Virus record (IMG/VR): IMGVR_UViG_3300021511_000005
Location: 45,479 to 109,478 of that record
Direction: 5' to 3' (one strand)
Source: a virus
Length of the DNA stretch: 64,000 bases
Shown here in pieces: positions 19,569-33,231 of this stretch. The translations under genes were made by a program, and so were the position numbers. Each line of letters opens with the position of its first letter. The stretch's first letter is position 1. The notes beneath the pieces are model-generated. The model worked only from the letters and a program-made list of their open reading frames with translations, was not told where the DNA came from and did not search any database.

Positions 19569-19895
19569 ATGCGCTGGTCAGGGTTGATTGTCGCGGTGGT
19601 GGCGCTGGTCCTGGCCTTCGTGGTGGCCGTTCTGGGGTCCTGCACGGCCCCCAATCCATCGCTTCAGGACTGGGAGGCCTGGGACGTCTACTGCTATCCG
19701 GACAGCTGTGTGGCGGTCTGGCGGGCTCAGGACGGCGGTTTGGGCGTGGACCGGCTTCTGCTGTGCGATGAGACCGGGTGCTACTGCATGGGCGGGGGGA
19801 GCCTGCGGACGCGCTGCTGCGACCGGCAGCCCTTCACCATGGAGGCCATGGAGTCCGTCTACCTCGGTGGGTGCTGCGCTACATTAGGCCCTTGA
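19569..19895 (+). CDS. Putative lipoprotein
   Basis: 108 residues. A signal peptide with hydrophobic core (LIVAVVALVLAFVVAVL) ends in a lipobox LGSC, so Cys 24 should be lipidated. The mature part is Cys-rich (DVYCYPDSC, LLLCDETGCYC, RCCDRQ, GGCC) and probably disulfide-bonded outside the cytoplasm. Phage lipoproteins often block superinfection or assist lysis; which applies here is unknown. The TGA stop is inside the -35 box of the next promoter. Confidence 0.7.
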   Translation: MRWSGLIVAVVALVLAFVVAVLGSCTAPNPSLQDWEAWDVYCYPDSCVAVWRAQDGGLGVDRLLLCDETGCYCMGGGSLRTRCCDRQPFTMEAMESVYLGGCCATLGP

Positions 19896-19950
19896 CTTAC
19901 TCCGCACTGCGGTCACCATCCTATTGTCTTCGGACAACAAGGAGGCTCAC
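19891..19950 (+). promoter_or_regulatory. Promoter-leader cassette A
   Basis: -35 TTGACT (19892-19897), palindrome CCGC-ACT-GCGG (19902-19912), a weak -10 region (CATCCT) and a leader hairpin TTGTC-TTCG-GACAA (19924-19937), followed after one base by AAGGAGG (19939-19945) and ATG 19951. It shares its layout with cassettes B-G. The stop codon of the lipoprotein gene overlaps the -35 box. Confidence 0.7.
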
Positions 19951-20832
19951 ATGGCGACCAAGCAGCTCTCTCTTCTTCCCAAGTTGGCCCTGGCGGCTGC
20001 GATGTCTAGCGAGTTGAACAAGGCCAAGCGGGACGAGACCATTCCCGACCTGCAGAGCTACGATATCATTCTGGTCAACACCAGCGCGGGCAAGGACAGC
20101 CAGGCGATGCTGGACCTGGTGGTGGAGCACGCCAAGGCGGCCGGCGTCCTGGACCGGGTAATCACGGTCCACGCGGACCTGGGTCGGATGGAGTGGGCGG
20201 GGACTGGCGAGCTGGCCCGCGAGCAGGCTGAGCACTACGGGCTCCGTCTCGAGGTCGTGAAGCGTCCCCAGGGCGATTTGCTGACCCAGGTGGAGGACCG
20301 GGGTATGTGGCCGGGCCATACCACGCGCTACTGCACCAGCGACCAGAAGCGGGGTCAGGTCTACCGCGCGATGACCGCCTTGGTCCGCGAGCTGGGTCTG
20401 AAGCGCCGGGCGCGGATCCTCAACTGCCTGGGCCTCCGCGCGGAAGAGAGTCCTAACCGTGCCAAGCTCGAGCCTCTGAAGGCGGACAAGAAGGCCAGCA
20501 ACAAGACTAAGCGTGAGGTGGACACCTGGCTGCCCATTCACGACTGGACGGTGGAGCAGGTCTGGGCACGTATCAAGCAGAGCGGCGTCCGCCACCACCG
20601 GGCCTACGATTTGGGGATGCCCCGGCTCAGCTGCGTGTTCTGTATCTTCGCGCCCAAGGCGGCCCTGGTGCTCGCCGGCAAGCACAATCAGGAGCTGTTG
20701 GACGAGTGTGCGGGGATCGAGAAGCGGATTGGCCACACCTTCCGCCAGGATCTGACGCTGGCGGAGGTCAAGGAAGCGGTGGAGGCCGGCGAGGGCGGGG
20801 CCGTCGAGGACATCGACAGCTGGTGCTGCTAG
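19951..20832 (+). CDS. PAPS-reductase-family PP-loop protein 1
   Basis: 293 residues. The PP-loop SAGKDS (residues 45-50) binds ATP or an adenylated substrate, as in PAPS reductase/DndC-type enzymes. Downstream CTSDQKRG and LRAEESPNRAKL match the C-x-x-x-x-K and R-x-E-S-x-x-R family motifs, and SCVFCIFA gives a CxxC pair. Phage members have no assigned sulfur-assimilation role and could act in nucleic-acid modification. ATG 19951 follows the cassette Shine-Dalgarno. It is monocistronic, followed by cassette B. Confidence 0.8.
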   Translation: MATKQLSLLPKLALAAAMSSELNKAKRDETIPDLQSYDIILVNTSAGKDSQAMLDLVVEHAKAAGVLDRVITVHADLGRMEWAGTGELAREQAEHYGLRLEVVKRPQGDLLTQVEDRGMWPGHTTRYCTSDQKRGQVYRAMTALVRELGLKRRARILNCLGLRAEESPNRAKLEPLKADKKASNKTKREVDTWLPIHDWTVEQVWARIKQSGVRHHRAYDLGMPRLSCVFCIFAPKAALVLAGKHNQELLDECAGIEKRIGHTFRQDLTLAEVKEAVEAGEGGAVEDIDSWCC

Positions 20833-20846
20833 GAAGCGATTAGACC

Positions 20847-20910
20847 CTTGACATGCTCCGCGCTGGGGTCAGCATATAGGGGTCCTCGGACACAACTCAC
20901 GGAGGCTCAC
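20847..20910 (+). promoter_or_regulatory. Promoter-leader cassette B
   Basis: TTGACA (20848-20853), imperfect palindrome CCGC-GCT-GGGG (20858-20868), AT-rich CATATA (20873), short leader stem GTC-CTCG-GAC (20882-20891), GGAGG (20901-20905) and ATG 20911. The leader stem is only three pairs, weaker than in A or F. Confidence 0.65.
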
Positions 20911-21870
20911 ATGACGACTCAGACCTTGTTCGACTTTGCCCGCCCCAGCCGGCCCACCAGCACCTTCACCGATAGTGACCAGCTGACGGTCGTGGACCTG
21001 TGTTGCGGCGCCGGGATGGCCTCCTTGGGCTTCAAGGCGGCCGGCGGCTACGACATCCTGGGCGGCGTGGACATCTGGGACGACGCGGTGGAGGCCTTCT
21101 GTCTCAACCACGGCAATGACTACGACTTCTTCCAGGACGCGGGCTGGCTGGGCGTCGAGGGCGCAGCGGCTGGCCGTCAGGAGCATTCCGACGGTTGGAC
21201 GGTGGACGTGGTCTTGACCGGTCCGCCCTGCCAGGACGACAGCCTGGCCAACCACGCCGCGGACAAGGGTCGTGGCGCCATCAAGGCTCCGGCGCTGGCC
21301 GCGGCGCGGGCGATGGGGGCCACCTGGATCATCATGGAGATGGTCACGAGCAAGTACGCTGACTGGTGCCGCAGCCAGGGTGCCCGTCAGATCCTGAAAC
21401 TCCAGGACTGCAAGCTGGGCGGCTTCACCATGCGGACCCGCTGGTTCGCCGTCTGGGGTCCCTGGGACCTGGTCATCACGGAAGAGCAGGGACGCGGCTG
21501 GGGTGAGGCTCTGGGTGTGGACGACCCCGACGCCCGTCTGGCGACCGAGAGTAACAGCAAGGCCAAGCGTTGGCAGCGGGCCAAGGCTCCCCACGAGGCC
21601 GCGGATGCCTGCGTGGGCGGCGACCGGCGCCACGTCATCCGCTTGGGTAACGGCGAGGAGATCCGGTTGGGACCCCAGGACGAGGCCGCGTTGGCCGGTT
21701 TCCCCAACTTGGAGCTGCAGCGGTCCGAGCACATGTGCAACGGGGAGCGTGAGTGGACGTGGACTCAGGGCGCCCAGAACGAGCGGGACGCCAACACCAT
21801 GGTCGGCAACGGCTGGCCCATGAGCTTCGGGCGCGCCATCGGGCGGGCCATCACAAGGAGGAGCCGATGA
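20911..21870 (+). CDS. C5-cytosine methyltransferase-like protein
   Basis: 319 residues with the motif order of DNA cytosine-5 methylases: motif I DLCCGAGMASLGF (Asp 29), motif IV GPPCQD with the catalytic Cys at 107, motif VI as EMV (Glu 143) where ENV is usual, motif VIII RTRWFAVW, and motif X VGNGWP near the end. A target recognition region around residues 190-260 is short. It should methylate cytosine in DNA, or initiate a covalent intermediate for another modification. It lies between two PP-loop genes with matching promoters. Confidence 0.8.
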   Translation: MTTQTLFDFARPSRPTSTFTDSDQLTVVDLCCGAGMASLGFKAAGGYDILGGVDIWDDAVEAFCLNHGNDYDFFQDAGWLGVEGAAAGRQEHSDGWTVDVVLTGPPCQDDSLANHAADKGRGAIKAPALAAARAMGATWIIMEMVTSKYADWCRSQGARQILKLQDCKLGGFTMRTRWFAVWGPWDLVITEEQGRGWGEALGVDDPDARLATESNSKAKRWQRAKAPHEAADACVGGDRRHVIRLGNGEEIRLGPQDEAALAGFPNLELQRSEHMCNGEREWTWTQGAQNERDANTMVGNGWPMSFGRAIGRAITRRSR

Positions 21871-22040
21871 CCGAGAGGGAGAAGAAGCTTCAATCGATTA
21901 GGGCCGTGGCGCAGAATCTTCGAGGTGTGGCGTCGTCGGAAGAGACAACCGACGAGTACGCCATTTGGCTTCGACGTCAGGCCGCGGTCTTGGAGTCCTC
22001 GGTTCGATTTCTGGCCTCACAGCGCGAAACGAGGGAGTAG
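21867..22040 (+). CDS. Small helical protein
   Basis: 57 residues in ATGA overlap with the methyltransferase gene. Helical (REKKLQSIRAVAQNLRGVA, WLRRQAAVLESSVRFL). It is co-translated with the methylase and could be an accessory subunit. No family recognised. Confidence 0.55.
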   Translation: MTEREKKLQSIRAVAQNLRGVASSEETTDEYAIWLRRQAAVLESSVRFLASQRETRE

Positions 22041-22376
22041 ATGGCCGGCAAGGATAGCCACGGGGCAAGCGCGGCCCGGCGCGCCAAGGCGGACGCCAAG
22101 GACAAAGCCCGGCGCTTGAAGGCGCGCGGGACCTGGACGCCGCGGAAGCCGGAACAGTTGGAGCTGCCGCTGGACCGGATCGCGCTGGAGGAGGGCGTGA
22201 TCTACCATCCGTGCGAGACCGGGATGGAGCCCTGCGAGGCTTGTACCGAGTGGGCCAAGACCGCGGAGCGCGACGAGTGGGGGTACTTCATAGGTCCCAG
22301 TCCCTGCGACCTGGTTCGGCGCCGGCGGCTGGAGGCTTTTACTGCGGAACACAAGACCCGAGGAATCACACTATGA
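22041..22376 (+). CDS. Small unknown basic protein
   Basis: 111 residues abutting the previous stop. The Lys/Arg-rich N-terminus (KADAKDKARRLKARG) is probably disordered. Three cysteines (HPCETGMEPCEAC) could form a metal site. No family recognised. Confidence 0.55.
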   Translation: MAGKDSHGASAARRAKADAKDKARRLKARGTWTPRKPEQLELPLDRIALEEGVIYHPCETGMEPCEACTEWAKTAERDEWGYFIGPSPCDLVRRRRLEAFTAEHKTRGITL

Positions 22377-22693
22377 CTGACGAACAGATAGAAGCCCGAG
22401 CTTGGGCGTTGATCAACGAGGGGCCGCTGTTTCTGGCGAAGCAGATCGTCCGGATGGATGAGGCCCTGGTGGGTCTGATTGAGCGTGTGGACCGGCTCGA
22501 AGAGAATCAGGTTGTCCTGGATGTGGATGACATCGAGGGCCGCCTGGGAGCGGTTGAGGCGTCCTCCGAGCGATTCGAGGATCTGCAGCTCCTGGCCTTC
22601 ACCGAGACCACCGCGGACCAGTTGGAGAGCCTGGAGGGTCGCCTGGATCGCTTGGAGGAGCGGGTTCCAGACCCGGAGCTGCGGACACCATGA
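22373..22693 (+). CDS. Small coiled-coil protein
   Basis: 106 residues with long heptad-like stretches (MDEALVGLIERVDRLEENQ, QLESLEGRLDRLEERV). It probably oligomerises. ATGA-coupled on both sides. No family recognised. Confidence 0.55.
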   Translation: MTDEQIEARAWALINEGPLFLAKQIVRMDEALVGLIERVDRLEENQVVLDVDDIEGRLGAVEASSERFEDLQLLAFTETTADQLESLEGRLDRLEERVPDPELRTP

Positions 22694-23436
22694 CCGCGTT
22701 CGCGAGGGGCTCCGATCTGATTGCCAAGTCTCTGGACGTGCCCGGGGTTCGGGATGCCCGGGTCTATGAGTCTGAGCCTGGGAAGGTGGATTTGGTGGTC
22801 TGGACGTATCCCGAGTATGTCTACCCTGGCCGTGATTCGGAAGTGATCCTGGACGAAGTCCGCAGGCAAGTATCGGGGATGATACCGATGGGAGTCTTGA
22901 TCAAGGTGATCAAGGGGGAGGACATCCCGATCCAGCTCAAGAGGGCGATGATTGGCCTCCAGGGCAACGCGGCGGTGGCTATGCCTATCCTCGATTGGGT
23001 TACTGCAGATGACTTCGCTGCGGGCCTCCTGGAGTGTGAGGACCAGGTCTTCGGGAGGAGCGGGAACTGCAATTGTCAGCTGTCATGGTTCTGGTGCGCG
23101 GCCCGCTGCGCCCAAGGATCTCCACGGGCCCGGCGCTGGCTGGGGGTGGATCTGGAGCGGTCACCGGAGAGCTACTGGCAGGATCGCCACGTCTGTCAGG
23201 CGCTGAAGAGTCCCGCGATAGAGGATATCTTTGTTCATGATATCTTTCTGGAGGCCGCTGGTTACGCACCCATCCTGAAGGTTCTCCGGATGGCCTACGC
23301 CGGCGAGGGGCTGATCCTGGATCGGGGAGTGAGCGGGGAATGGTGGGAGCTGGTCGGACTCCGCCACCAGGCCCAGCGTCGTGTTATCCTGGAGGCCGTG
23401 TGGGGCGGTGAGGAAGACGAGTCGGACTCCCCGTGA
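22690..23436 (+). CDS. Unknown phage protein
   Basis: 248 residues. An N-terminal alpha/beta part (VPGVRDARVYESEPGKVDLV, VRRQVSGMIPMGVL) has a ferredoxin-like rhythm; the C-terminal part is helical and Cys-containing (GNCNCQLSWFWCAARCAQ), which might bind metal. No catalytic motif recognised. It ends just before cassette C. Confidence 0.6.
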   Translation: MTAFARGSDLIAKSLDVPGVRDARVYESEPGKVDLVVWTYPEYVYPGRDSEVILDEVRRQVSGMIPMGVLIKVIKGEDIPIQLKRAMIGLQGNAAVAMPILDWVTADDFAAGLLECEDQVFGRSGNCNCQLSWFWCAARCAQGSPRARRWLGVDLERSPESYWQDRHVCQALKSPAIEDIFVHDIFLEAAGYAPILKVLRMAYAGEGLILDRGVSGEWWELVGLRHQAQRRVILEAVWGGEEDESDSP

Positions 23437-23440
23437 CCCC

Positions 23441-23502
23441 CTTGACATACTCCGCATAGCGGTCAACATACAGGGGTCCTCGAGACAACTCCGGAGGCTC
23501 CG
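23441..23502 (+). promoter_or_regulatory. Promoter-leader cassette C
   Basis: TTGACA (23442-23447), perfect palindrome CCGC-ATA-GCGG (23452-23462), CATACA region, short stem GTC-CTCGA-GAC (23476-23486), GGAGG (23493-23497) and ATG 23503. Confidence 0.65.
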
Positions 23503-24597
23503 ATGACCCAGACAGCTCTGAACGTAGACCGGATTGTGACCCTCAACTGCGGCCTGGGGCGTGATTCCATCGCGATGACGGGGCTGCTGGAAGAGGGCGA
23601 GCTGGTGGTGGCGGAGCGGGTTTGGTGTTGCCGGGATTGTGGAGCTGAGATCCCCATGGTGGAGGAGCTAGCCCCGATCTGTGATTGTACCGACCCCGAC
23701 GGTTGGTGTGTTCCCGCCATGATCCAGTTGACCACCAAGATCGGCCGCCAGGACGTGGACTACGTGGTCTTTTCGGATGTTGGTCACGAGTGGGAGCATA
23801 CCTACAAGCTGATCCCGACCATCCGCGAGAAGTGCGCGGCGATGGGCGTCCGCTTCTTCGTACTGGCCAAGGGCAACGGTCGGAGCTACCCCGCGAAGCC
23901 CTCCACCTGGGCCGAGGTTGAGGCCAAGGCCGCCGCGGGCGGTTATCACGTTAGCAACAAGGGTCAGGCCCTCCCGGCCCTCATGGATGAGATGTTGTCC
24001 CGGTCCACGGTGGTCAACTTCCGCGGACAATGCACGGACAAGCACAAGATCTCCCCGATGCGCCGGCTCATCGAGGATGTGGCCCGGATCCGCTTCGGCG
24101 TTCGTGACAACCGCCGCTGGGGTCACGAGGTCCGCAAGGGTCAGCGCCGTCCCCATCTGGCAATGGTGGGTATCGCCGCGGATGAGACTCCCCGCATCAA
24201 CAAGGCCGCCCAGGCTGCGGGTGTGAGCTACGTGGACGAGACCTATCCGCTGGTCACCATGGGGATCGCCAAGACGGACGAGCAGCCTATCCTGGAGCGT
24301 CACGGTCTGGGGCACGTCCGGAAGTCTGGCTGCTACCTTTGCCCCTTCCAGCCGGCGAGCTGGTACTGGGCTTTGAGCGTGACCGATGAGGTCGCCTACC
24401 AGATGGTGGTGAGCTACGAAGCTCAGGCCCTCCAGAACAATCCCAACATGCACGCCACGGCTGCCAAGAAGACCATCCCCGAGATGGTGAAGACTTGGCG
24501 AGCTGCCAACCCGAAGGCCACCGTGGGCGCTGTTCTGGCCAAGACTTACGAGATGTGCCCCGCCGCGGCTCGAACGGCCCAGCGGGTGGCGGCTTGA
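23503..24597 (+). CDS. PAPS-reductase-family PP-loop protein 2 with zinc insertion
   Basis: 364 residues. The PP-loop is the variant CGLGRDS (residues 16-22). Immediately after the first strand and helix sits a Cys-rich insertion (CCRDCG...CDCTDPDGWC) that looks zinc-binding. VVFSDVGHEWEHTY corresponds to the SDTG-x-E-x-x-x-T family block, and SGCYLCPFQPASWYWAL provides a CxxCPFQ motif. It is clearly a different subfamily from the first PP-loop protein. Substrate unknown; DNA or RNA modification is an inference from its neighbourhood. Confidence 0.75.
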   Translation: MTQTALNVDRIVTLNCGLGRDSIAMTGLLEEGELVVAERVWCCRDCGAEIPMVEELAPICDCTDPDGWCVPAMIQLTTKIGRQDVDYVVFSDVGHEWEHTYKLIPTIREKCAAMGVRFFVLAKGNGRSYPAKPSTWAEVEAKAAAGGYHVSNKGQALPALMDEMLSRSTVVNFRGQCTDKHKISPMRRLIEDVARIRFGVRDNRRWGHEVRKGQRRPHLAMVGIAADETPRINKAAQAAGVSYVDETYPLVTMGIAKTDEQPILERHGLGHVRKSGCYLCPFQPASWYWALSVTDEVAYQMVVSYEAQALQNNPNMHATAAKKTIPEMVKTWRAANPKATVGAVLAKTYEMCPAAARTAQRVAA

Positions 24598-24656
24598 CAT
24601 ATTCCGCAGTGCGGTCAATATCTAGAGGTCCTCGCGACACTGACCAGGAGGCTCTG
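24593..24656 (+). promoter_or_regulatory. Promoter-leader cassette D
   Basis: TTGACA (24594-24599) contains the upstream gene's TGA stop. Perfect palindrome CCGC-AGT-GCGG (24604-24614), TATCTA-type AT-rich box, short stem GTC-CTCGC-GAC (24628-24638), AGGAGG (24646-24651) and ATG 24657. Confidence 0.65.
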
Positions 24657-24998
24657 ATGGCTCGATTGACCCAACCCCCCAAGAACCAGGCCTACGCGCA
24701 AATCACTGAGGCCATCGGTACACGCGGCCGGTGGAACCTGTTGGGCTACGCTCGCGTGTCTCTGCTCAGTCCAACTGATCGGGAGGAGATTACGGTTCGT
24801 GTTCAGGCGAGCGCTTGCGAGGTCCCGGTGGGCCACAAGCGGCAACTCAGGCGATGCGACCTGTTCATTACGCCGGAGGAGATCGAGTGGCTCGAGCGGC
24901 AGATCGCCTATACCCAGAGCCATGATGGGAAGGCCCCGCATCCGGGCGAGCGACCGGATTGGCCCAAGGCCGGGGACCAGCTCGGGCTGGGCGTGTGA
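24657..24998 (+). CDS. Unknown phage protein
   Basis: 113 residues from ATG 24657 after the cassette ribosome site. Contains a beta-rich core (RWNLLGYARVSLLSPTDREE, ITVRVQASACEVPV) and a helical segment (ITPEEIEWLERQIAY). No family recognised. Its own promoter cassette suggests it is needed at a defined time or level. Confidence 0.65.
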   Translation: MARLTQPPKNQAYAQITEAIGTRGRWNLLGYARVSLLSPTDREEITVRVQASACEVPVGHKRQLRRCDLFITPEEIEWLERQIAYTQSHDGKAPHPGERPDWPKAGDQLGLGV

Positions 24999-25055
24999 CA
25001 ATCGGCAGGGGCGCGGAATAGGATCAACAGGGGCTTTGGCCCCAGGGAGGCACCG
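24995..25055 (+). promoter_or_regulatory. Variant promoter-leader cassette H
   Basis: GTGACA (24995-25000) includes the upstream TGA stop. TAGGAT (25019-25024) lies 18 bases downstream as a possible -10. The leader has a perfect five-pair hairpin GGGGC-TTTG-GCCCC (25030-25043) touching AGGGAGG (25044-25050) before ATG 25056. The CCGC-N3-GCGG palindrome is absent, so this unit may be regulated differently. Confidence 0.55.
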
Positions 25056-25322
25056 ATGGCGGGATCACCCAACCTGAAGGTCTACGCAGGCCGCGAGTAT
25101 GTGGCGAGCTGCAAGCATATCGAGGACGCGGTGGTGATTGCGGCCGTCCGCGGCGAGGGCACCACCATCCGCTACGGGCACGGCAAGGCTGCGATCCTGT
25201 GGACGGAGGGGGCGGAGGGCCAGTCCGCTAGCGAGAGTTACGACCACGCGACGGCCGTGGTGGTCTCGCGGATGGAGGCCCACTTCGCGCTGCTGGCGCG
25301 CAGGCGGAAGGCCCGCGGCTGA
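25056..25322 (+). CDS. Small unknown protein
   Basis: 88 residues, alpha/beta (LKVYAGREYVASCKHIEDA, VVIAAVRGEGTTIRYGHG). First gene after the variant cassette H. TGATG to the next gene. No family recognised. Confidence 0.6.
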   Translation: MAGSPNLKVYAGREYVASCKHIEDAVVIAAVRGEGTTIRYGHGKAAILWTEGAEGQSASESYDHATAVVVSRMEAHFALLARRRKARG

Positions 25323-25654
25323 TGTCCAACCCGGACCGTAACCGGATTGAGCTGCCTGGGGTAATTCTTCAACTGGGCAAGCCACGGTTGACAGCCCGGG
25401 GACGGGTCATGGTGATCCCGGCGCTGCTCTACCCGGAGCGGCCGGTTAACTTCATCAACACGACGATCACACTCGGAGGCGGAGATGCCCCTGTTGGACG
25501 ACAAGGACCGGGCGACGTTGGCCTGGCTGAAGGAGGCGAAGATGACGAGGGACGGAAGGTACAACACGACGCCGGCGGTGGACCGCAAGGCGGCCAAGCT
25601 CCGGGCGGAGGGGTTGAGCTTCCGCAAGATCGCGGAGGCTCTGGGGGTCAGTGA
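25322..25654 (+). CDS. Small unknown protein with overprinted tail
   Basis: 110 residues, but only the first 54 or so (RNRIELPGVILQLGKPRL, VMVIPALLYPERPVNF) look genuine. From 25485 on, the frame reads through the next gene as Gly/Asp/Gln-rich sequence. Stops are rare in this relative phase because a stop would need T at the downstream gene's third codon positions, so the long tail may simply be tolerated. Confidence 0.45.
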   Translation: MSNPDRNRIELPGVILQLGKPRLTARGRVMVIPALLYPERPVNFINTTITLGGGDAPVGRQGPGDVGLAEGGEDDEGRKVQHDAGGGPQGGQAPGGGVELPQDRGGSGGQ

Positions 25655-25907
25655 CAAGACGGCCAAGCAGGCCGCGGAGCGTGGCGCTAACGGTCGTCAG
25701 CTGGACGCCGAGAAGGCCAGGGGCCAGGAACTGCGGAAGCTCCTGAAGGACCGCTGGCGGAGGCTGACGGACCCGGAGATGGAGGCAATGGAGCGGCGGA
25801 TGGCCGGCGATACCCAGGACGCGATCGGCGCCAAGCTGGGCATCAGCAAGCAGCGGGTGGCCCAGCTCCAGGCCCAGGCGGAGAAGAAGCTTCGGGAGGA
25901 ACGATGA
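25485..25907 (+). CDS. Double helix-turn-helix DNA-binding protein
   Basis: 140 residues with two HTH motifs: GLSFRKIAEALGVSDKTAKQ (about residues 45-64) and DAIGAKLGISKQRVAQLQ (about 112-130, similar to sigma-70 region 4 or LuxR-type HTH). A helical charged linker joins them. It could be a phage transcription regulator or a small-terminase-like DNA binder. GGAGGCGGAG precedes ATG 25485. The 170-base overlap with the upstream frame is noted there. Confidence 0.7.
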   Translation: MPLLDDKDRATLAWLKEAKMTRDGRYNTTPAVDRKAAKLRAEGLSFRKIAEALGVSDKTAKQAAERGANGRQLDAEKARGQELRKLLKDRWRRLTDPEMEAMERRMAGDTQDAIGAKLGISKQRVAQLQAQAEKKLREER

Positions 25908-26275
25908 CGACGGCCGAGCGACTCAGGAAGATCTTGACGAGGCACCGTTACAGGTCCTTTGACTACTCCAACGACTTCAAGATCAAGGCGACAGACGCCC
26001 TGCTGGACAAGCTGGTGGCGGAGCTGCTGGAGGTCGTGGAGGATCAGGAGAAGAAGGTTCACGCGGCATACGCGCCTGACGTGGCCGCTTCCTTCGACAA
26101 GGTCAATCAGAGTGATTTCGTTATCGGGCTGGTCCGCAAGGTCCGCAAATGTAATGCCTGCGGTTGTTCTAAGTGGGAACCCTACGTTCCGCTGGGGCGG
26201 TTCGGGGCGGACGGGCTCGTCTGCGCGGGCTGTGGTAACGCTATCGAGAATAGCACCATGATGGAGGAGCCCTGA
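25904..26275 (+). CDS. Unknown protein with C-terminal zinc ribbon
   Basis: 123 residues in ATGA overlap with the HTH gene. The N-terminal 80 residues are helical (KATDALLDKLVAELLEVVED); the end has CNACGC and CAGCGN, a zinc ribbon. Possibly a nucleic-acid binder acting with the preceding regulator. Confidence 0.6.
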   Translation: MTTAERLRKILTRHRYRSFDYSNDFKIKATDALLDKLVAELLEVVEDQEKKVHAAYAPDVAASFDKVNQSDFVIGLVRKVRKCNACGCSKWEPYVPLGRFGADGLVCAGCGNAIENSTMMEEP

Positions 26276-27432
26276 TGGGCCAAGATAGACTTACCGAGGG
26301 CGGCCGGAGCATTGTGTGGAAGGCCGTGATGGACAGTTTGAACGCTCACCGGCGCCAGGGGATGGTCTTCAAGACCAAGCTGTTCTTGAAGTTCGAGCGC
26401 TGGGGCGTGGGGGTGGAGGATCTGTGGGAGCCCGGGATGCCCGACAAGCCTGGGATTCCGGAGGAGACGATCCAGGCCTTCGTTGCGGACATCGCCGCGG
26501 ACGTCTGCAAGCGTGTGGAGGAGGCGCTGGACCGCATCGACCCTAGGCCAGGGCCCAACCAGGAGATCATCTGCCAGAGCTGCGGTCAGGAGTTCGTGAC
26601 CACGGTGGGTGGAGCTTGCCCGAGCTGCGGACACAAGTGGGACGGGACAACGCCGGCGACAAAGGACCTGTCCGCGGCAGACCGGGCGAAGCGGGCCTGG
26701 GGCGAAGTCCAGATTGGCGGACCTGGTGACGTGGTGGAGCCGCCGGCGATAACCGACGCCATAGAGCGCTGGAAGGCGGATCCGGAGCCCAGCATGGACG
26801 AGACGTGGACGGAGGCCGAGAGGATCTCGTGGACGGAGGCCGAGAGGATCTCCTGGGAAGCAGTGGAGCGGTTGGAGGGGAGCGGCCACACCCCCCATTG
26901 CGCGCGGAGGATGATCTGGGGAGATGGGGAGTGCGAATGCCAGCTGCCGAAGGCGAAGGCCTCCGCGATCACCTGCACCTGCCACCTGATGGACCCGGGG
27001 AAGCTCTGTGCCGTCTGCTTGGAGGACATGAATCGCCAGCTCCAGGAGACCTACCAGCCGGCCTTCCCGGACACGCAAAGTCGGATCGACGAGCTGCGGG
27101 GAGCGCTCGAGGCCGGCGCACGGTTGGCGGAGGAAGAGCCCCTTCCGGTGATGGACGACCCGATGGGTCCCGTATCGCAGGCCCCGCGACACGGGACACG
27201 ACCAGGCCGGCCCCCGCGGAGCTACAAGGAGATGGCCCGAGATGAGCGAGAGGCTGCAGAGAGAGACGCTAGGGTTCTGCATGAATTGTGGGGATCCGCT
27301 GGTCCCAAGGGACCTAGAGCTGGCGGTGGTGCAGCTCCGGAAGACGATCCTCAATCAGCTGAGGAGCGTGGGCTGGACGCCGGGCTGGAGGACCGCGGAC
27401 AACCTGGCCCGGACGATCCTGTCGGGGATTGA
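26275..27432 (+). CDS. Unknown protein with zinc ribbon and tandem repeat
   Basis: 385 residues. The N-terminus is helical. CQSCG...CPSCGHKW (about residues 100-121) is a zinc ribbon. A second Cys-rich region (CECQLPKAKA, CTCHLMDPGKLCAVC) lies around 222-248. A 24-base tandem repeat encodes WTEAERIS twice. The last 64 residues overlap the next gene and are Gly/Pro/Glu-rich read-through. No catalytic motif recognised. Confidence 0.6.
   Translation: MGQDRLTEGGRSIVWKAVMDSLNAHRRQGMVFKTKLFLKFERWGVGVEDLWEPGMPDKPGIPEETIQAFVADIAADVCKRVEEALDRIDPRPGPNQEIICQSCGQEFVTTVGGACPSCGHKWDGTTPATKDLSAADRAKRAWGEVQIGGPGDVVEPPAITDAIERWKADPEPSMDETWTEAERISWTEAERISWEAVERLEGSGHTPHCARRMIWGDGECECQLPKAKASAITCTCHLMDPGKLCAVCLEDMNRQLQETYQPAFPDTQSRIDELRGALEAGARLAEEEPLPVMDDPMGPVSQAPRHGTRPGRPPRSYKEMARDEREAAERDARVLHELWGSAGPKGPRAGGGAAPEDDPQSAEERGLDAGLEDRGQPGPDDPVGD
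26805..26852 (+). repeat. 24-base perfect tandem repeat
   Basis: Two exact 24-base copies inside the preceding gene, encoding WTEAERIS twice and followed by a degenerate third unit (WEAVERLE). It is consistent with recent slippage duplication. Confidence 0.9.
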
Positions 27433-27475
27433 GGATTACGGGCGAGAGGAGCCTCCACCGAATTCTGACCCTTGA
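27242..27475 (+). CDS. Small unknown protein
   Basis: 77 residues. Contains CMNCGD, half a zinc knuckle near the N-terminus, then a helical stretch (ELAVVQLRKTILNQLRSVGW). Its start lies 191 bases inside the upstream frame. The TGA stop is within the -35 box of cassette E. Confidence 0.5.
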   Translation: MSERLQRETLGFCMNCGDPLVPRDLELAVVQLRKTILNQLRSVGWTPGWRTADNLARTILSGIEDYGREEPPPNSDP

Positions 27476-27534
27476 CATGCTCCGCGGCGCGGTCATCATC
27501 TCGGTTGTCTTCGGACGCTACCTTGGAGGCTCGA
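27471..27534 (+). promoter_or_regulatory. Promoter-leader cassette E
   Basis: TTGACA (27472-27477) overlapping the upstream stop, perfect palindrome CCGC-GGC-GCGG (27482-27492), CATCTC region, stem TGTC-TTCG-GACG (27506-27517) with a UUCG tetraloop, GGAGG (27525-27529) and ATG 27535. Confidence 0.7.
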
Positions 27535-27831
27535 ATGTTCAGCAGCTACGACAACTGGAAGACCACGGACCCCCGCGACTCTGAGCGGGAGGTTGGGATG
27601 GTGGATTGCCCCGACTGTCAAGGCGAGGGCCATGGTTGCGACGAGGACGGCCCCTGGTACTGCCCGACCTGCAGCGGCGAGGGTTGGCTGTGGGAGGAAG
27701 TCCTGGAGGTCATGGAAGCGGAGGAGGAGCTGGACGCGGGTTGTCCGCGCTGTGGTGGCCTTCTCTGCAACTGCGTCAACATCGAGGCCAGTATAGAAGC
27801 CATGATGGCCGGAAAGGAAGAAGCTGCCTGA
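27535..27831 (+). CDS. DnaJ-type zinc-knuckle protein
   Basis: 98 residues. CPDCQGEGHG and CPTCSGEGWL are two CxxCxGxG repeats as in the DnaJ cysteine-rich domain, followed by GCPRCGGLLCNC. No J-domain is present. Such short proteins probably bind zinc and an unfolded peptide or nucleic acid partner. First gene of a run under cassette E; the next genes follow by TGATG. Confidence 0.7.
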   Translation: MFSSYDNWKTTDPRDSEREVGMVDCPDCQGEGHGCDEDGPWYCPTCSGEGWLWEEVLEVMEAEEELDAGCPRCGGLLCNCVNIEASIEAMMAGKEEAA

Positions 27832-28202
27832 TGGACCGCACCGATCCCCGACACGTCGCCCACGAGCTGACCCCCCTGGAGCGTGTTCTCCAGACCATGT
27901 CCTACCACACCGGCCTGGTGATGACCGAGCCGGCCCCCAGCACCTTGAAGATGGGGCTGTCCCACGAAGACGTCTTGGTCTTGGTGGAGATCACCATCCA
28001 GCCCAGCTCCTGCGGCCCGCAGGAGGACAGCCCCCTGGGTCCCAACGTCATGGACCAGTGTTGCATCAAGGTCGAGGGGGAGGCGAAGGGCTCCTGGGTT
28101 GGGAACCGCTGTGGTGCCCGTCAGGCCCTGGCAGCGCTATACGCTCCGGTCATCGCGGCCGCAGCCGCGATGGAGTCCGAGACCGAGAGGAATGCGGCTT
28201 GA
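27831..28202 (+). CDS. Unknown phage protein
   Basis: 123 residues from ATG 27831 (TGATG). N-terminal helical part (ELTPLERVLQTMSYHTG), beta middle (EDVLVLVEITIQPSS) and an Ala-rich helical end (AALYAPVIAAAAAMESE). No family recognised. Confidence 0.6.
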   Translation: MDRTDPRHVAHELTPLERVLQTMSYHTGLVMTEPAPSTLKMGLSHEDVLVLVEITIQPSSCGPQEDSPLGPNVMDQCCIKVEGEAKGSWVGNRCGARQALAALYAPVIAAAAAMESETERNAA

Positions 28203-28381
28203 TGGATCGGGATCAGTGGAAGAGGCGCGTGGTGTCCAAGCGGGAGGCCAGGATCGCCAAGTTGGTCCGTGCTCATGGTTTCACGCGCGTATCGGATCGG
28301 AAGGTCCGCTGTCCTCATTGCGGCGCGGAGCTGACCTATAATCTGGTGCGACGTGTCCATTTGACCGGGAGGTGTGTCTGA
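28202..28381 (+). CDS. Small zinc-finger protein
   Basis: 59 residues. Helical basic start (RRVVSKREARIAKLVRAHG), then CPHCGAELTYNL and a final H-x(4)-C, giving a CCHC-type zinc site. TGATG-coupled on both sides, so part of the SprT operon. Probably nucleic-acid binding. Confidence 0.6.
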   Translation: MDRDQWKRRVVSKREARIAKLVRAHGFTRVSDRKVRCPHCGAELTYNLVRRVHLTGRCV

Positions 28382-29130
28382 TGGCCAAGCCGAAACAATA
28401 CCGCTGGGTCTGTCCTCAGTGTGGGGCCGGCAAGCTGGCGCCGAGCAGGCCGCGGAAGGACGACGTCCGCCGCTACTGCCTACCCTGCAGCGAGCGGACG
28501 GGGCGGTTGGTGGAGAGACTGTCTCCGGCGCTGGAGCGCCAGCGTCGGGAGAAGGAGGAGCGCCGGCGGAGCAGGGACAAGCGCAAGCGGGCGGCCAAGA
28601 CCCGGGCGAGGGCTCGCAATCGCGAAGCCCGGGCGGAGTGGATCGTGGAGCGGGAGATCGCTTTGGGCTTTGCCCAGGACGGCGGGAAAGACTCCATCCA
28701 CGGTTGGTTCCGCAGGCTCCGGAAGCTGAAGGCCTGGGGCTGCAAGATGAGCCACTGCAGCCTCCGGGTCCGTTACAGCGACACGGACCGTCACGCGCAT
28801 CCCTGGACCAGCGGACACGCCTGGCTGGAGGAGGGCGAGATCGTGATCACGGCCGCCAAGCCCAGGGCGGGTTACCCGACGTTGCGGCAGAAGGCGGAGG
28901 TGATCCAGACTCTGCTCCACGAGCTGGCCCATCCCGCAGCCTTTGGGCGTTTCGGACACGAGGGGACTAACCACGGCCCGGAGTTCAAGCGGACACTGCT
29001 CGAGGCCGCGGAGGAGCTGACCGGTCGGGTAGCGGATGTGACCGTAGAGCACGCGACTTATGACGTGGACCAAGAGGTTGTGGATATGCTTCACCTGTGG
29101 CTGATGGAAGAGGACGCCGATGGCTGCTGA
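28381..29130 (+). CDS. SprT-like metallopeptidase with N-terminal zinc ribbon
   Basis: 249 residues. N-terminal CPQCG...CLPCSE zinc ribbon, a very basic coiled segment (REKEERRRSRDKRKRAAK), then a SprT-like domain: LLHELAHPAAF (His 180, Glu 181, His 184) with downstream GHEGTNHGPEFK offering the third zinc ligand (His 193 or 198). SprT/Spartan proteases degrade DNA-crosslinked proteins, and the basic region suits DNA contact. ATG 28381 preferred over an upstream GTG. Part of the cassette E operon. Confidence 0.8.
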   Translation: MAKPKQYRWVCPQCGAGKLAPSRPRKDDVRRYCLPCSERTGRLVERLSPALERQRREKEERRRSRDKRKRAAKTRARARNREARAEWIVEREIALGFAQDGGKDSIHGWFRRLRKLKAWGCKMSHCSLRVRYSDTDRHAHPWTSGHAWLEEGEIVITAAKPRAGYPTLRQKAEVIQTLLHELAHPAAFGRFGHEGTNHGPEFKRTLLEAAEELTGRVADVTVEHATYDVDQEVVDMLHLWLMEEDADGC

Positions 29131-29767
29131 CCTAACACGGGGACAGGTGATGGACGCCCTGGAGCAGCTCATATGGGGTGGGACCGCTTCGTGGCTGGGG
29201 GAGGACCTGGCCCACGCGATGGCCATCTTTGAGGGCACCGGGCGGATCAGCGAGCGCTTGATGGAGGTGGTCCAAGATCACGTCCAGGTCCGAGAGGTTG
29301 AGCGCTTGGAGCAACAGGTGGCTCAGACTGCCCTTCGGGAGACCGCATTGGAGGCTATGAAGAAGAAGGGGCGGAAGGTTCACTGGCGGATCGCGGGTCA
29401 GCGCAAGACGGCTTGCGGGTTGGTCCTCAATCCTCAGCGCGAGCCCTACAACGCGCCGGCGGCCGATTACGATCCGGAGAAGGTCACCTGCAAGAGTTGC
29501 CTGGGATCCAGTGGGCTCCGGGAGCTGCGGTCCAAGTGGCCGCCGGTTCGTGTGTTGTCTGCGAGCTTCAGTTTGGAGGGGCCACCGGAGGGCAGGACTC
29601 GGGTCTTCAGTTATCGGCGCCGGATGACCCCGGAGGAAGTGGCGGTGGTGACGACACTTCTGGAGGAGCGAGTCCCCAGTCTACTGGAGGAGCCGGATCC
29701 CAAGATTGTCACAGCCTATCGCGCGGCCAAGGCGGCCGCGGAGAGGAGGGACGCCGATGGCAGCTAA
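29120..29767 (+). CDS. Unknown protein with CxxC pair
   Basis: 215 residues. Helical N-terminal half (VMDALEQLIWGGTASWLG, QVREVERLEQQVAQTA), a middle part with HWRIAGQRKTACG and CKSCLG that may form a zinc site, and a C-terminal alpha/beta region. It overlaps the SprT gene by 11 bases. No family recognised. Confidence 0.6.
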   Translation: MAADLTRGQVMDALEQLIWGGTASWLGEDLAHAMAIFEGTGRISERLMEVVQDHVQVREVERLEQQVAQTALRETALEAMKKKGRKVHWRIAGQRKTACGLVLNPQREPYNAPAADYDPEKVTCKSCLGSSGLRELRSKWPPVRVLSASFSLEGPPEGRTRVFSYRRRMTPEEVAVVTTLLEERVPSLLEEPDPKIVTAYRAAKAAAERRDADGS

Positions 29768-29948
29768 GGTCTACATGTTGGAGCTGGAGAACGGGACCTA
29801 TGTCTACCTGTGTCCCCAGCACCTGAAGGATTGGCGGGTGGCTGGCGGCAAGGAGAAGGCCAAGGTGGCCACCGGCCGCGACTGCGATCACTGCGCGGCT
29901 GGCGGTGGGCCGGGCAGCTCCTGGAGCGTGCGCGATGATGACGCCTAA
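29757..29948 (+). CDS. Small unknown protein
   Basis: 63 residues. Beta-hairpin-like start (AKVYMLELENGTYVYLC), then CPQH and CDHC that together could bind zinc. It overlaps both neighbours. No family recognised. Confidence 0.55.
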   Translation: MAAKVYMLELENGTYVYLCPQHLKDWRVAGGKEKAKVATGRDCDHCAAGGGPGSSWSVRDDDA

Positions 29949-30588
29949 GCGGTTGCTCCGGAACCTGCGGGACGCCAAGGCGGCCCGCAACAAGTTGGTC
30001 AAGGTCTGGCGCCACAAGGTCCAGCTCCCCGAGGGGGCGAAGGTCCAGTGTCGGGGTAAGGGTTGCGTGGGCTGCTGTTACCAATTCGTCCTGGCGGGCA
30101 TCTGGGAGGGCGCGTTGATCGCTCACTATCTGCTGCACACGGAGGGCTCCCACGAGCTGATTCAGGAGTGCGCGCGGGCCGGGGACGAGCAGCTCGAGCG
30201 TGTTGGGCCCGAGTACACCCCGGACGCGATCAACGCGGTCACGGGGCCCTGGTTGGACGAGAGACACCCCTGCGTCTTCCTGAAGGATGGGGTCTGCGAG
30301 ATTTATGCTCTGCGGCCTATCGCGTGCTCGAGCTACGTTGTCATCAGCGATCCGGAGGTCTGCGCCGCGGGGAGCGGGGCGGAGGTTTGCGCCGGCGACA
30401 ACGCGAGCTGTTTGGCCTGGAGGCTTGAGGTGGACCGGCGGCTCGTTTCGGAGCTGCTGAGCATCAAGCGGGACGACGTGGTGGTGATGCCCTTGCCGCT
30501 GCCCCGGGCGGTGACTCTGGGCTCTCAGCTCCTGCTGGAGGGGCCAGAGGCGCTTCGTGGGATTGTCCTGGGCGAATCGAACCCTTGA
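29935..30588 (+). CDS. YkgJ-like cysteine-cluster protein 2
   Basis: 217 residues. Helical basic start, then CRGKGCVGCCYQF (the CxxxxCxxCC cluster) and CVFLKDGVCEIYALRPIAC, the C-x-IY-x-x-RP-x-x-C signature of the YkgJ family. Additional Cys follow. The family is thought to bind zinc or iron; role unknown. It belongs to the same family as the protein at 16342 but is not a close copy. Its stop lies in the -35 of cassette F. Confidence 0.8.
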   Translation: MMTPKRLLRNLRDAKAARNKLVKVWRHKVQLPEGAKVQCRGKGCVGCCYQFVLAGIWEGALIAHYLLHTEGSHELIQECARAGDEQLERVGPEYTPDAINAVTGPWLDERHPCVFLKDGVCEIYALRPIACSSYVVISDPEVCAAGSGAEVCAGDNASCLAWRLEVDRRLVSELLSIKRDDVVVMPLPLPRAVTLGSQLLLEGPEALRGIVLGESNP

Positions 30589-30647
30589 CATAGTCCGCAT
30601 CGTGGTCACCATATGCTCGTCTTCGGACGCAACCTCAGGAGGCTCCA
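30584..30647 (+). promoter_or_regulatory. Promoter-leader cassette F
   Basis: TTGACA (30585-30590) overlapping the upstream stop, palindrome CCGC-ATC-GTGG with one mismatch (30595-30605), CATATG box, perfect stem CGTC-TTCG-GACG (30618-30629), AGGAGG (30637-30642) and ATG 30648. Confidence 0.7.
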
Positions 30648-30956
30648 ATGACTAAAGTGGTGTTTGAGCGGATGGAGACGGATCCCCAGGACGGGACCAC
30701 GACTTGGGAGATCCGGTTGGAGACCGGGGGCGTGACCGAGGTGGTGGGCTCCATCCACAAGGATACGGTGTGGTGCGGCGATGGCTACCGGGCGGATACC
30801 TATCATGTCGAGGTGGACCGGGATCAGTGGGACGATTCGCGGGAGAAGACGTTCCAGGTCTGCAATATTTGGAGCCGCGGTCGTGGAACGTCGGCGCGGA
30901 CTGCGATGGCCGAGGCGAAGGCCTGGGCACGCGAACAGCTCAAGGAGGGCCTCTAG
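30648..30956 (+). CDS. Unknown phage protein
   Basis: 102 residues, mostly beta (KVVFERMETDPQDGTTTWEI, DTYHVEVDRDQWDD) with a C-terminal helix (TAMAEAKAWAREQLKEG). First gene after cassette F. No family recognised. Confidence 0.6.
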   Translation: MTKVVFERMETDPQDGTTTWEIRLETGGVTEVVGSIHKDTVWCGDGYRADTYHVEVDRDQWDDSREKTFQVCNIWSRGRGTSARTAMAEAKAWAREQLKEGL

Positions 30957-31198
30957 TGGCTCGCAACTCAGACGGCACGTTTGCCAGCAAGCAGCACCTG
31001 GATCGCTTCGACCATCAGCGGCAGCTCCAGATGAAGCTCCGCGAGGTCTTGACCACCGCCGCGGACAAGTTGGATCCCCAGGACGCGCTGTGGGGTGTCA
31101 AGGTGATGCGGGAGCGGCCGGACTGGGCCGTCCCAGTGATCGAGCGTATCGAGGCCGAGCTGGCCGTTGACCGTCTAACTGGAGGCTGCAATGGTTGA
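30956..31198 (+). CDS. Small unknown protein
   Basis: 80 residues from GTG 30956 on the upstream stop (TAGTGG). The opening ARNSDGTFASKQHLDRFDHQ resembles the NxDGTF start of several small phage proteins. The rest is helical. No family recognised. Confidence 0.55.
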   Translation: MARNSDGTFASKQHLDRFDHQRQLQMKLREVLTTAADKLDPQDALWGVKVMRERPDWAVPVIERIEAELAVDRLTGGCNG

Positions 31199-31544
31199 TC
31201 TGTTCCTGGCCCTTCTCTCCATCCCCTTCGTTCTCCGCCCGCGGGAGGACGACTGTTGCCGGTGGGACGTCTACGCAGGCCCCATGCTCGTGGCGATCGT
31301 GGAGTACGTCCACAGCGCCAAGGGGGAGTGGATGTGGAGTCCTCCGTGTTCCGGGTTCCGTTATCCCTGTCCCTGGGACTCTTCCCGGGGGACCTGGGCG
31401 GACTCCTATCCGGACCGCCACGAGGAGGCGCTGATGGCGGAGATCCGGCGCTTCATCGAGATCCACAACGTCGAGCATCACCAGGCCTACCTGCTTGCCA
31501 TGATGACCGGGGAGCGGCGCTTGCTCGAGCTGGAGGGAGAGTAG
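31191..31544 (+). CDS. Unknown phage protein
   Basis: 117 residues. A short hydrophobic N-terminus (VDLFLALLSIPFVL) could be a weak membrane anchor. The middle is Trp/Cys/Pro-rich (CCRWDVYAGPM, WMWSPPCSGFRYPCPW). Helical end. No family recognised. Confidence 0.55.
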   Translation: MVDLFLALLSIPFVLRPREDDCCRWDVYAGPMLVAIVEYVHSAKGEWMWSPPCSGFRYPCPWDSSRGTWADSYPDRHEEALMAEIRRFIEIHNVEHHQAYLLAMMTGERRLLELEGE

Positions 31545-31546
31545 CC

Positions 31547-31798
31547 ATGGACAAACGATCGGCCCCTACTCTGTACTTCAGCTCCAAGACCGGCAAGTGG
31601 GGCACCACGCCGATCGAGGGTGCTCCCACCTGGCAGCACAGCTCCATGATGGTCTATGAGGCCTGGTTGCGGAGCCAGGACCGTCGGCGGCGCTACGCGG
31701 CCCAGAGAGCCGCGGACCGTCGGCGGACCAAGGCCCAGTCCAAGTACATCGTCGAGCGGTGCCTGATGGCACTCCTGGCTCACTGGGAGCGGTCATGA
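31547..31798 (+). CDS. Small basic protein
   Basis: 83 residues. Beta start (PTLYFSSKTGKWGTTP) and a long basic helix (QDRRRRYAAQRAADRRRTK) suitable for nucleic-acid contact. No family recognised. Confidence 0.5.
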   Translation: MDKRSAPTLYFSSKTGKWGTTPIEGAPTWQHSSMMVYEAWLRSQDRRRRYAAQRAADRRRTKAQSKYIVERCLMALLAHWERS

Positions 31799-32085
31799 GG
31801 CGGCGCGCGGGTGAGGACCAAGAGGATACACGTCGGCGGTTGACCTGGCGCATTGAACAGCTGGCGGAGGTGGGCTGGATCCCGGTGGGCTGGGATGATG
31901 TCCGCGGGAAGTTGGCGCCTAAGTCTCCGGCGGAGAGCCATAGGGTCCGCTGTCCCCATTGTGAAGTGACCTTTGACCACAGCAGCGGGACGGCCCGGGA
32001 GAAGCACTTGATCAAGAAACATGGTTACAGTCGCCTGGACGGTTTCTACCGGGCTCATGGGATGGACTGCTTCGAAGAGCCTTGA
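31795..32085 (+). CDS. C2H2 zinc-finger protein
   Basis: 96 residues from ATG 31795 (ATGA). CPHCEVTF...REKHLIKKHGY is a classical C2H2 finger (C-x2-C-x14-H-x4-H, residues 55-77), uncommon in bacteria but known in some phage and Ros-type regulators. The N-terminal half has a helix and loop. Candidate nucleic-acid-binding regulator. The stop lies in the -35 of cassette G. Confidence 0.65.
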   Translation: MRRRAGEDQEDTRRRLTWRIEQLAEVGWIPVGWDDVRGKLAPKSPAESHRVRCPHCEVTFDHSSGTAREKHLIKKHGYSRLDGFYRAHGMDCFEEP

Positions 32086-32150
32086 CATACTCCGCAGCGG
32101 GGTCATCATATCGGTTGTCAGGGCTTCGGCCCACAACCCAGGAGGCTCCG
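32081..32150 (+). promoter_or_regulatory. Promoter-leader cassette G
   Basis: TTGACA (32082-32087) overlapping the upstream stop, palindrome CCGC-AGC-GGGG with one mismatch (32092-32102), CATATC box, and the strongest leader hairpin: GGTTGT (32113-32118) pairs with ACAACC (32133-32138), a two-base bulge, then GGGC-TTCG-GCCC (32121-32132). AGGAGG (32140-32145) and ATG 32151 follow. Confidence 0.75.
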
Positions 32151-32381
32151 ATGACCAAGACCGTTACGAAGGAACGCAAGGATGGCCGGGACCTGGCCAA
32201 GCTTCTCCGCTCCAATTTCGGCTCCTACGAGCTGGTTCAGAATGTCCTGACCGCACAGTGCGCCGGCTGTCGCGAGATGGCTCAGGGGATGTTGGACGAG
32301 CTGACTGTGGACGAGCTGGACGAATTGGACGCCCAGATCGAGCTGATTCAGACTCAGATGGCTCAGCAGGCGCAGGAGTAG
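32151..32381 (+). CDS. Small unknown acidic protein
   Basis: 76 residues. Basic start (TKTVTKERKDGRDLAK), a CAGC pair, then an acidic Leu-rich helix (LDELTVDELDELDAQIEL). No family recognised. It is separated by three bases from the XF1762-like gene. Confidence 0.6.
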   Translation: MTKTVTKERKDGRDLAKLLRSNFGSYELVQNVLTAQCAGCREMAQGMLDELTVDELDELDAQIELIQTQMAQQAQE

Positions 32382-32384
32382 GCG

Positions 32385-33194
32385 ATGCACCAGCTCCGCC
32401 TTGCCATCGAGCCCCTGGACGACACCCGGCCCATTCCGACCTGCCAGGATGGAACCGGGCCCATCTGCCCCTGGTGCGGGGAGGAGCGTTTCCTGGATGT
32501 CCTGGAGTACTGGCCGGAGGAGCGGGCGTGGATGTTCGATACCTGCTGTGAGGGCTCCCATCAGGATGCCTGTGAGCACGCCGCCCAGGACCCCCGGGGC
32601 TTCGGTCGTTGGTTTGAGGGCGTGACTGGTTGCTACGTCCGTCAGGGTTACCAGAGTACGGTGGAGCCCGACTTTCTCCGCCTGGACTTCGGTTTGACCG
32701 TGGGGCCGGTGAAGCAGGCGGACGCCAAGGCCTTCATCAGCGAGCATCACCGCCACAACAACGCACCGGCCGGCTGGAAGTGGGGTTTGGGCTGCTACAA
32801 CGGCCACGAGCTAATCGCAGTCCTGTGGGTCGGTCGTCCGGTGGCGCGGAAGCTGGACCACACCAAGATCGTCGAGGTCAACCGCTTGTGTGTGAATCCC
32901 GACCTGGACCCGGAGCTGGTGTGGAACGCTTGCTCGAAGCTCTACGCTGAGGCGGCCCGGGAGGCCAAGACTCGGCGCTACGACAGGGCCATCACCTACA
33001 CCCTGGCGAGCGAGTCCGGCGGGACCCTGGTGGCTGCGGGCTGGACCCCGACGCACCGCACCGAGGGAGGAAGCTGGGATCGCCCGAGCCGAGCCCGCAC
33101 CGACAAGGCCCCGACTTGCCAGAAGATCCGTTGGGAGAAGGGTTGCAACAAGCGCGCCCGTAAGGACATCGCCAAGCGGGCCATCACCCTGTAA
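32385..33194 (+). CDS. XF1762-like GNAT-type protein with N-terminal zinc motif
   Basis: 269 residues. An N-terminal Cys cluster (CPWCGEERFLDVLEYW, DTCCEG) precedes a domain with the pattern of the phage/plasmid XF1762 family: AFISEHHRHNNAPAGWKWGLG, VGRPVARKL, VEVNRLCVN, NACSKLYAEAAREAK, ITYTLASESG and LVAAGW. The strand-helix order and loops are GNAT-like. A relationship to Mu Mom-type DNA-modifying acyltransferases has been a tempting idea for such proteins; here it is only inference. It follows cassette G. Confidence 0.75.
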   Translation: MHQLRLAIEPLDDTRPIPTCQDGTGPICPWCGEERFLDVLEYWPEERAWMFDTCCEGSHQDACEHAAQDPRGFGRWFEGVTGCYVRQGYQSTVEPDFLRLDFGLTVGPVKQADAKAFISEHHRHNNAPAGWKWGLGCYNGHELIAVLWVGRPVARKLDHTKIVEVNRLCVNPDLDPELVWNACSKLYAEAAREAKTRRYDRAITYTLASESGGTLVAAGWTPTHRTEGGSWDRPSRARTDKAPTCQKIRWEKGCNKRARKDIAKRAITL

Positions 33195-33196
33195 GC

Positions 33197-33231
33197 TTGC
33201 CCACCGAGGTCTCGCGCGTTACGCTGGGGCC
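33197..33231 (+). promoter_or_regulatory. Possible leaderless promoter of the lysis genes
   Basis: TTGCCC (33197-33202), 17 bases, then TACGCT (33220-33225), only six bases before ATG 33232. The gene has no Shine-Dalgarno. If this box is a -10, transcription would begin at or next to the start codon, giving a leaderless mRNA. Confidence 0.45.

Follow-up and report, generated by a model that had tools for sequence, protein, structure and literature searches.

A promoter-leader cassette of about 60 bp was found in seven dispersed copies in a 64,000-nucleotide stretch of viral DNA (the window; bases 45479-109478 of the 109,478-base contig IMGVR_UViG_3300021511_000005). All copies lie on the + strand between 19.9 and 32.2 kb, each ahead of a gene group. 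Each is read here as a sigma-70-type promoter with a phage operator and a short leader, which would place groups of accessory genes under common control; this reading, drawn from the sequence, is given a probability of about 0.68. The contig carries structural genes (tail sheath, baseplate, head, terminase) and replication genes (DnaB, primase, UvsX-like, DNA polymerase, clamp) and was therefore assigned to a tailed phage with a tail of contractile type. All genes called in the window are on the + strand.

Conservation and distribution of the cassette

The consensus is CTTGAC[A/T]T-R-N-TCCGC-RNN-GNGGTCA-N-[C/T]AT, followed by GTC-loop-GAC and by GGAGGCTC-NN-ATG, the last of which is present at all seven sites. 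A cassette matrix was scored by leave-one-out (six copies against the seventh), with 20 first-order Markov simulated windows as background. The seven sites listed in a preliminary description of this DNA were all recovered, with scores of 34-49 bits, and they stand alone: the best non-member site anywhere in the contig reached 7.6 bits, the simulations peaked at 11.4 bits, and the 45 kb outside the window contained no copy. The contig contains exactly seven instances of the string GGAGGCTC-NN-[A/G]TG, each at a cassette. Half-site matrices, applied to the rest of the contig in search of further regulator sites, gave nothing above the random maximum, and no Rfam family was matched in the window.

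The exact pattern was absent from 2.9 million viral contigs and from 84,980 species genomes. A scan of relatives, proposed in the preliminary description, was likewise negative: with up to three mismatches tolerated, the cassette was not found in 53 related records (48 collected via the major capsid protein and five via the terminase). Nor did any relative found carry genes convincingly similar to the accessory genes behind the cassettes, the matches being short or weak.

Some two dozen positions are invariant (the columns CTTGAC-T, TCCGC, G-GG, TCA and AT), and about ten others inside the block are free and have drifted. Pairwise identity is 0.77 in the block, 0.29 in the upstream flanks and 0.30 in the first codons. 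Because flanks and first codons are random-like and the free positions have drifted, the cassettes are, on this evidence, islands maintained by selection and not recent duplications or copies of a larger duplication.

Each cassette occupies one of the few real gaps in a tightly packed gene array and begins a gene or a run of genes (1, 5, 1, 1, 7, 5 and 2 genes, respectively), as had been proposed. In five cases the upstream frame ends on the TGA within TTGACA; transcriptional read-through between the cassette gene groups is possible. Coordinates are compiled in Table 1.

Table 1. Cassettes, the genes that they precede, and associated features (window positions; −10 and +1 are predictions; SD, Shine-Dalgarno sequence).
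Feature	Positions	Strand	−35	−10	+1	Leader element	SD	Remarks
Cassette 1	19891..19950	+	TTGACT 19892-19897	CACCAT 19914-19919	G 19926	GTCTTCGGAC 19926-19935	GGAGGCTC 19941-19948	Spacer block TCCGC-ACT-GCGG 19901-19912; ATG 19951; upstream open reading frame stop TGA within −35
Gene after cassette 1	19951..20832	+						PAPS-reductase-like; Pfam PF01507, phrog_424
Cassette 2	20847..20910	+	TTGACA 20848-20853	CAGCAT 20870-20875	20882	GTCCTCGGAC 20882-20891	20901-20908	
Run after cassette 2	20911..23436	+						Five genes; first C5 cytosine methylase-like, PF00145
Cassette 3	23441..23502	+	TTGACA 23442-23447	CAACAT 23464-23469	23476	GTCCTCGAGAC 23476-23486	23493-23500	
Gene after cassette 3	23503..24597	+						Distant PAPS-reductase-like; phrog_424, E 2.4e-13
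Cassette 4	24593..24656	+	TTGACA 24594-24599	CAATAT 24616-24621	24628	GTCCTCGCGAC 24628-24638	24647-24654	TGA of preceding gene (24595-24597) within −35
Gene after cassette 4	24657..24998	+						Single gene without family match
Eighth site	24995..25055	+	GTGACA 24995-25000	TAGGAT 25019-25024		Hairpin GGGGCTTTGGCCCC 25030-25043	Ribosome-binding site present	
Two-helix-turn-helix protein	25485..25907	+						140 amino acids; N-terminal helix-turn-helix, residues 35-63; sigma-70 region-4-like helix-turn-helix, residues 93-138; Pfam, PHROGs
Cassette 5	27471..27534	+	TTGACA 27472-27477	CATCAT 27494-27499	~27506	GTCTTCGGAC 27507-27516	27525-27532	Upstream open reading frame stop within −35
Run after cassette 5	27535..30588	+						Seven genes, SprT-like and CxxCxxCC proteins among them
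Cassette 6	30584..30647	+	TTGACA 30585-30590	CACCAT 30607-30612	30619	GTCTTCGGAC 30619-30628	30638-30645	Stop of preceding gene within −35
Run after cassette 6	30648..32085	+						Five genes
Cassette 7	32081..32150	+	TTGACA 32082-32087	CATCAT 32104-32109	~32116	Longer hairpin GGTTGTCAGGGCTTCGGCCCACAACC 32113-32138	32141-32148	Stop of preceding gene within −35
Run after cassette 7	32151..33194	+						Two genes; second Mom-like, phrog_1384, E 3.3e-28

Proposed promoter architecture and alternative explanations

The −35 is a perfect TTGACA in six of the seven cassettes. The block CTCCGC-N3-GCGGTCA, described previously as common to all, is present throughout, but the spacer is looser than that formula: three copies are exact and the remainder are off at one or two positions. 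The CATAT-like box at 19 bases from the −35 is the less likely −10; literal CATAT is found at three sites only. The most likely −10 hexamer is CANCAT, 16 bp from TTGACA. Read in this way, the hexamer begins with C, but its positions 2 (A) and 6 (T) are invariant, and the predicted +1 falls seven bases further on, at the G in the conserved GTC stem; the invariant positions and the place of the +1 support the 16-bp register, which is also favoured because two related contigs (G004 and G032, below) show TTGACA-16 with obvious −10 hexamers. The predicted RNA would then open directly with the leader hairpin.

Within the spacer block the left arm is constant, and substitutions in the right arm (to G or T) are not compensated. 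An RNA or DNA hairpin was rejected on these grounds; since the block is also short and asymmetric, TCCGC-N3-GNGG is read as a phage operator, that is, as a putative protein site. In the leader, GTC-YTCG-(N)-GAC is kept at six sites and replaced by a longer stem at the seventh. The hairpin reported earlier stands as a conserved GTC/GAC repeat, although it is weak (about −1.6 to −4 kcal/mol when the ribosome site is kept open, site 7 excepted). A stable UUCG hairpin as the selected feature was discarded, as three sites have CUCG or five-base loops and the energies are weak. Pairing of the leader with the ribosome site (below) is marginal when set against controls, and the leader is therefore regarded as a conserved 5′-terminal element and nothing more is claimed for it.

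In the scheme that we infer, each cassette combines an internal promoter of the sigma-70 type, a phage operator set into it, and a short leader. Host RNA polymerase would read TTGACA and the CANCAT 16 bp on and would start about seven bases later, at the G of GTC; the RNA would have a small stem-loop, GUC-YUCG-GAC, at its 5′ end and GGAGGCUC-NN-AUG after it. A DNA-binding protein of the phage, for which the two-helix-turn-helix protein of Table 1 is a tentative candidate, would read TTGACAT-NN-TCCGC-N3-GNGGTCA and switch the seven promoters together. This protein may be a repressor or an activator, the poor −10 fitting the latter. Sequence, position and analogy with relatives support a dispersed promoter-leader cassette for accessory genes well, and in all likelihood the cassettes are regulatory. 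Common control, as originally suggested, would probably be exerted by one regulator, judging from the conserved spacer.

Several observations weigh against this scheme. CANCAT is a poor −10 when set against the usual consensus. The spacer dyad CCGC-N3-GNGG has 4 bp per arm and is imperfect in three of the seven copies, and a symmetric dimer site is unproved. The RNA hairpin is weak, and pairing of GUCYUC with the ribosome site was preferred by the folding program in six of the seven leaders. No relative of the candidate regulator was detected in the viral collection, and no sigma-region-4 match was obtained in the related contigs G004 and G017. Terminase relatives were not found in bacterial or archaeal species genomes, and no host could be assigned.

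The last but one of these points also bears on the idea that the cassettes are a promoter class of a phage ECF-like sigma factor, with the whole block recognised by sigma and no operator. The phage does encode such a protein (160 amino acids, contig 35864-36346), in the replication region just behind the primase gene; like the two-helix-turn-helix protein it carries sigma region-4-like helices, and by profile this sigma-like protein is absent from G004. The cassette −10 also departs from the TANNNT of the contig's other promoter-like sites. The −35, however, is a standard TTGACA, with which the promoters of three relatives also start, two of these relatives (G004 and G017) having no sigma-region-4 match; moreover, no known sigma contact accounts for the five invariant bases TCCGC, three past the −35. 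A dedicated sigma factor is therefore considered unlikely. Ordinary strong host promoters, copied around and with the spacer kept by recent descent in place of a regulator, would agree with the lack of evidence for a regulator and with a sequence private to the present phage. Recent copying does not leave about two dozen positions invariant amid randomised flanks and free positions, and the cassette −10 is not strong, which makes this explanation distinctly unlikely.

Control at the RNA level, in which the GUC/GAC hairpin (ribosome site open) would alternate with GUCYUC:GGAGGC pairing (closed) as a translational switch for the whole group, appears quite improbable. The predicted minimum-energy structure pairs the ribosome site in six of the seven leaders, and all seven pairing probabilities exceed the shuffled-leader mean; individually, the pairing is significant at one site (0.005; others 0.18-0.48) and the combined support is marginal, and such a switch would not explain why TTGACA-TCCGC-GNGGTCA-CAT, which precedes the predicted start, is conserved. 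In the 19-bp register the 4-bp dyad sits exactly at mid-spacer before CATATN, as for promoters twisted open by a MerR-family activator. Against this highly improbable arrangement, the last −10 position is unconserved in that register and relatives use 16-17 bp; it was rejected for want of a MerR domain match (PF13411) in the contig, whose sequence may not be complete. Promoters of a T7-like polymerase gained no support either: there was no PF00940 match, though the control set was equally silent. The sigma-70-type promoter with a phage operator is retained.

Candidate regulator and neighbouring genes

The protein encoded at 25485-25907 is proposed as the cognate regulator, tentatively and by position and domain type alone, because it lies within the regulated region, behind a different promoter (the eighth site), and combines a helix of the −35-reading type with a second helix-turn-helix. 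An AlphaFold2 single-sequence model (pLDDT 77.7, pTM 0.37) gave no significant fold match, and its pTM is low. Across the relatives, the presence of HTH_3 or sigma-region-4 proteins does not track that of promoter families.

The eighth site had been counted as a reduced cassette. It does keep a hairpin and a ribosome-binding site, but it lacks the TCCGC-N3-GNGG block, remains under the reporting score of the cassette matrix and has a −10 of its own (TAGGAT); it is, as judged from its sequence, an ordinary, canonical-looking predicted promoter and not a cassette.

The two PAPS-reductase-like genes (19951-20832 and 23503-24597; phrog_424) each stand alone after their own cassette and have almost no direct similarity to each other. 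The C5-methylase-like (20911-21870) and Mom-like (32385-33194) genes behind cassettes are possible DNA-modification genes; neither has close relatives in the viral contig collection. The latter is followed at 33197-33235 by a leaderless-promoter-like sequence (TTGCCC, 17 bp, TACGCT, and ATG seven bases past the last T). Three giant proteins of 1816, 1416 and 1069 amino acids (37953-43403, 43372-47622 and 49999-53208) are encoded around the portal gene. They contain ddrB-ParB, DUF5661, TMEM65-like and inorganic-pyrophosphatase-type domains and resemble polyvalent proteins (PMC5512222).

Related contigs and comparison with known systems

Private promoter families were sought in twelve larger related records besides the present phage, and dispersed families were found in three (G004, G017 and G032). 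G004 is collinear with the present phage in structural and replication genes and carries seven copies of GTCTCAYG-TTGACAC...TANNATGG with TTGACA-16-TANNAT. The ATG lies at the predicted +1 or one base after it in five of the seven, and the corresponding five messages are predicted to be leaderless. G032 has TTGACA-16-TATAAT in four clear copies and a weaker fifth, with a CTTGATT/AATCAAG dyad around the −10. In G017, the −35/−10 spacer of five dispersed promoters is filled by TACGGC-N4/5-GCCGTA or a close variant, in the same spacer position as TCCGC-N3-GNGG, although the cassette block is shorter and asymmetric. All three families resemble the cassette in having a −35 of the TTGACA type, a spacing of 16-17 bp, several copies ahead of genes and, within the spacer or next to it, a conserved or dyad sequence; they differ from it in that each has its own operator-like sequence and in that the G004 copies are mostly leaderless. 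The same method gave no clear family in the other larger records, although two low-GC records did show small groups of dyads.

Private promoter families at the level of a clade are an unusual pattern. One speculative and rather unlikely explanation is that the clade shares a chassis (TTGACA, 16-17 bp, fixed start), spread over the accessory regions, on which lineages have replaced the operator in several scattered copies along with a swapped regulator, here an asymmetric two-helix-turn-helix reader of the −35 and TCCGC that in part resembles sigma region 4.

Other elements were noted in related contigs. G032 contains a perfect 28-base palindrome, GGCTTGACTGCAAATTTGCAGTCAAGCC, twice (contig 11775 and 56301). 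Dispersed AGGTATT/AATACCT dyads occur in promoter-like regions of G034 and G033 (e.g. G034 21135 and 33555), one of them some 280 bases ahead of an open frame that encodes an HTH_3 protein. In L015, a fragment whose terminase identity is 65%, a single promoter-like site lies at 1778-1840 (TTGATT...GCCGATAGGCGTCATATTAG, AGGAGG, ATG).

The preliminary description had not recognised the cassette from other phages. This holds for the sequence itself; the strategy of a dispersed cassette is already known from a few phages (PMC3203893, PMC11373665, PMC7302621). Like the cassettes, the operators/stoperators of Cluster A (L5 type; PMC9283540) are numerous, dispersed and asymmetric, and they lie in promoters and in short gaps between genes. 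Two DNA-binding domains are present in the L5-type repressor and likewise in the candidate at 25485, which gave no match to that repressor in PDB sequence or fold searches. An integrase, looked for as a mark of L5-type immunity, was not found (neither tyrosine nor serine recombinase families were matched in the possibly incomplete contig). At four sites, CTTGACAT-NN-TCC of the cassette matches 11 of 13 positions of the stoperator consensus in reverse complement; most of this match is the −35 itself, and every cassette is a predicted promoter with a start block. Repeated motifs, 5-12 in number, are reported from short intergenic gaps of Microbacterium phages of clusters EC, EF, EG and EI (PMC7302621). 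They too mostly lie at a fixed short distance before start codons, but their sequences are unrelated, and promoter elements are not mentioned for them in the part of that account consulted.

The nearest described kind is the ESAS/SAS of Cluster K mycobacteriophages, dispersed elements private to a group and ending in a conserved start block (PMC3203893, PMC11373665); that of Adephagia comprises SigA-like −35 and −10 hexamers, an inverted repeat and a conserved start block, in seven copies (PMC11373665). The cassette shares with these an intergenic position before some of the non-structural genes, a SigA-like −35 (with a putative −10), a conserved dyad, a block around the ribosome site whose conservation is unusually high and reaches the start codon and, with Adephagia, the copy number. 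It differs in its unrelated sequence (the SAS consensus GGGATAGGAGCCC has two two-mismatch matches in the window, neither at a cassette, versus 3.4 expected by chance), in spacing (17-18 bp there, an inferred 16 bp here), in the dyad (a pair of imperfect inverted repeats of about 15-17 bp, located upstream of the SAS, there; 4-bp arms inside the spacer here) and in having a GTC/GAC stem in the leader, where the +1 is predicted. Adephagia is temperate, whereas the present contig yielded no integrase. The cassette is thus not an ESAS, but by analogy it appears to work alike.

If the proposed reading is correct, many small unknown genes, DNA-modification-like ones included, would form one regulon with predicted start sites, and the private promoter families of the related viruses would form a natural series in which to study how scattered operator copies are rewired simultaneously. 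In Cluster K, too, the dyad consensus varies between subclusters (PMC3203893, PMC11373665), and the question of operator rewiring raised here resembles one that still stands for the ESAS.

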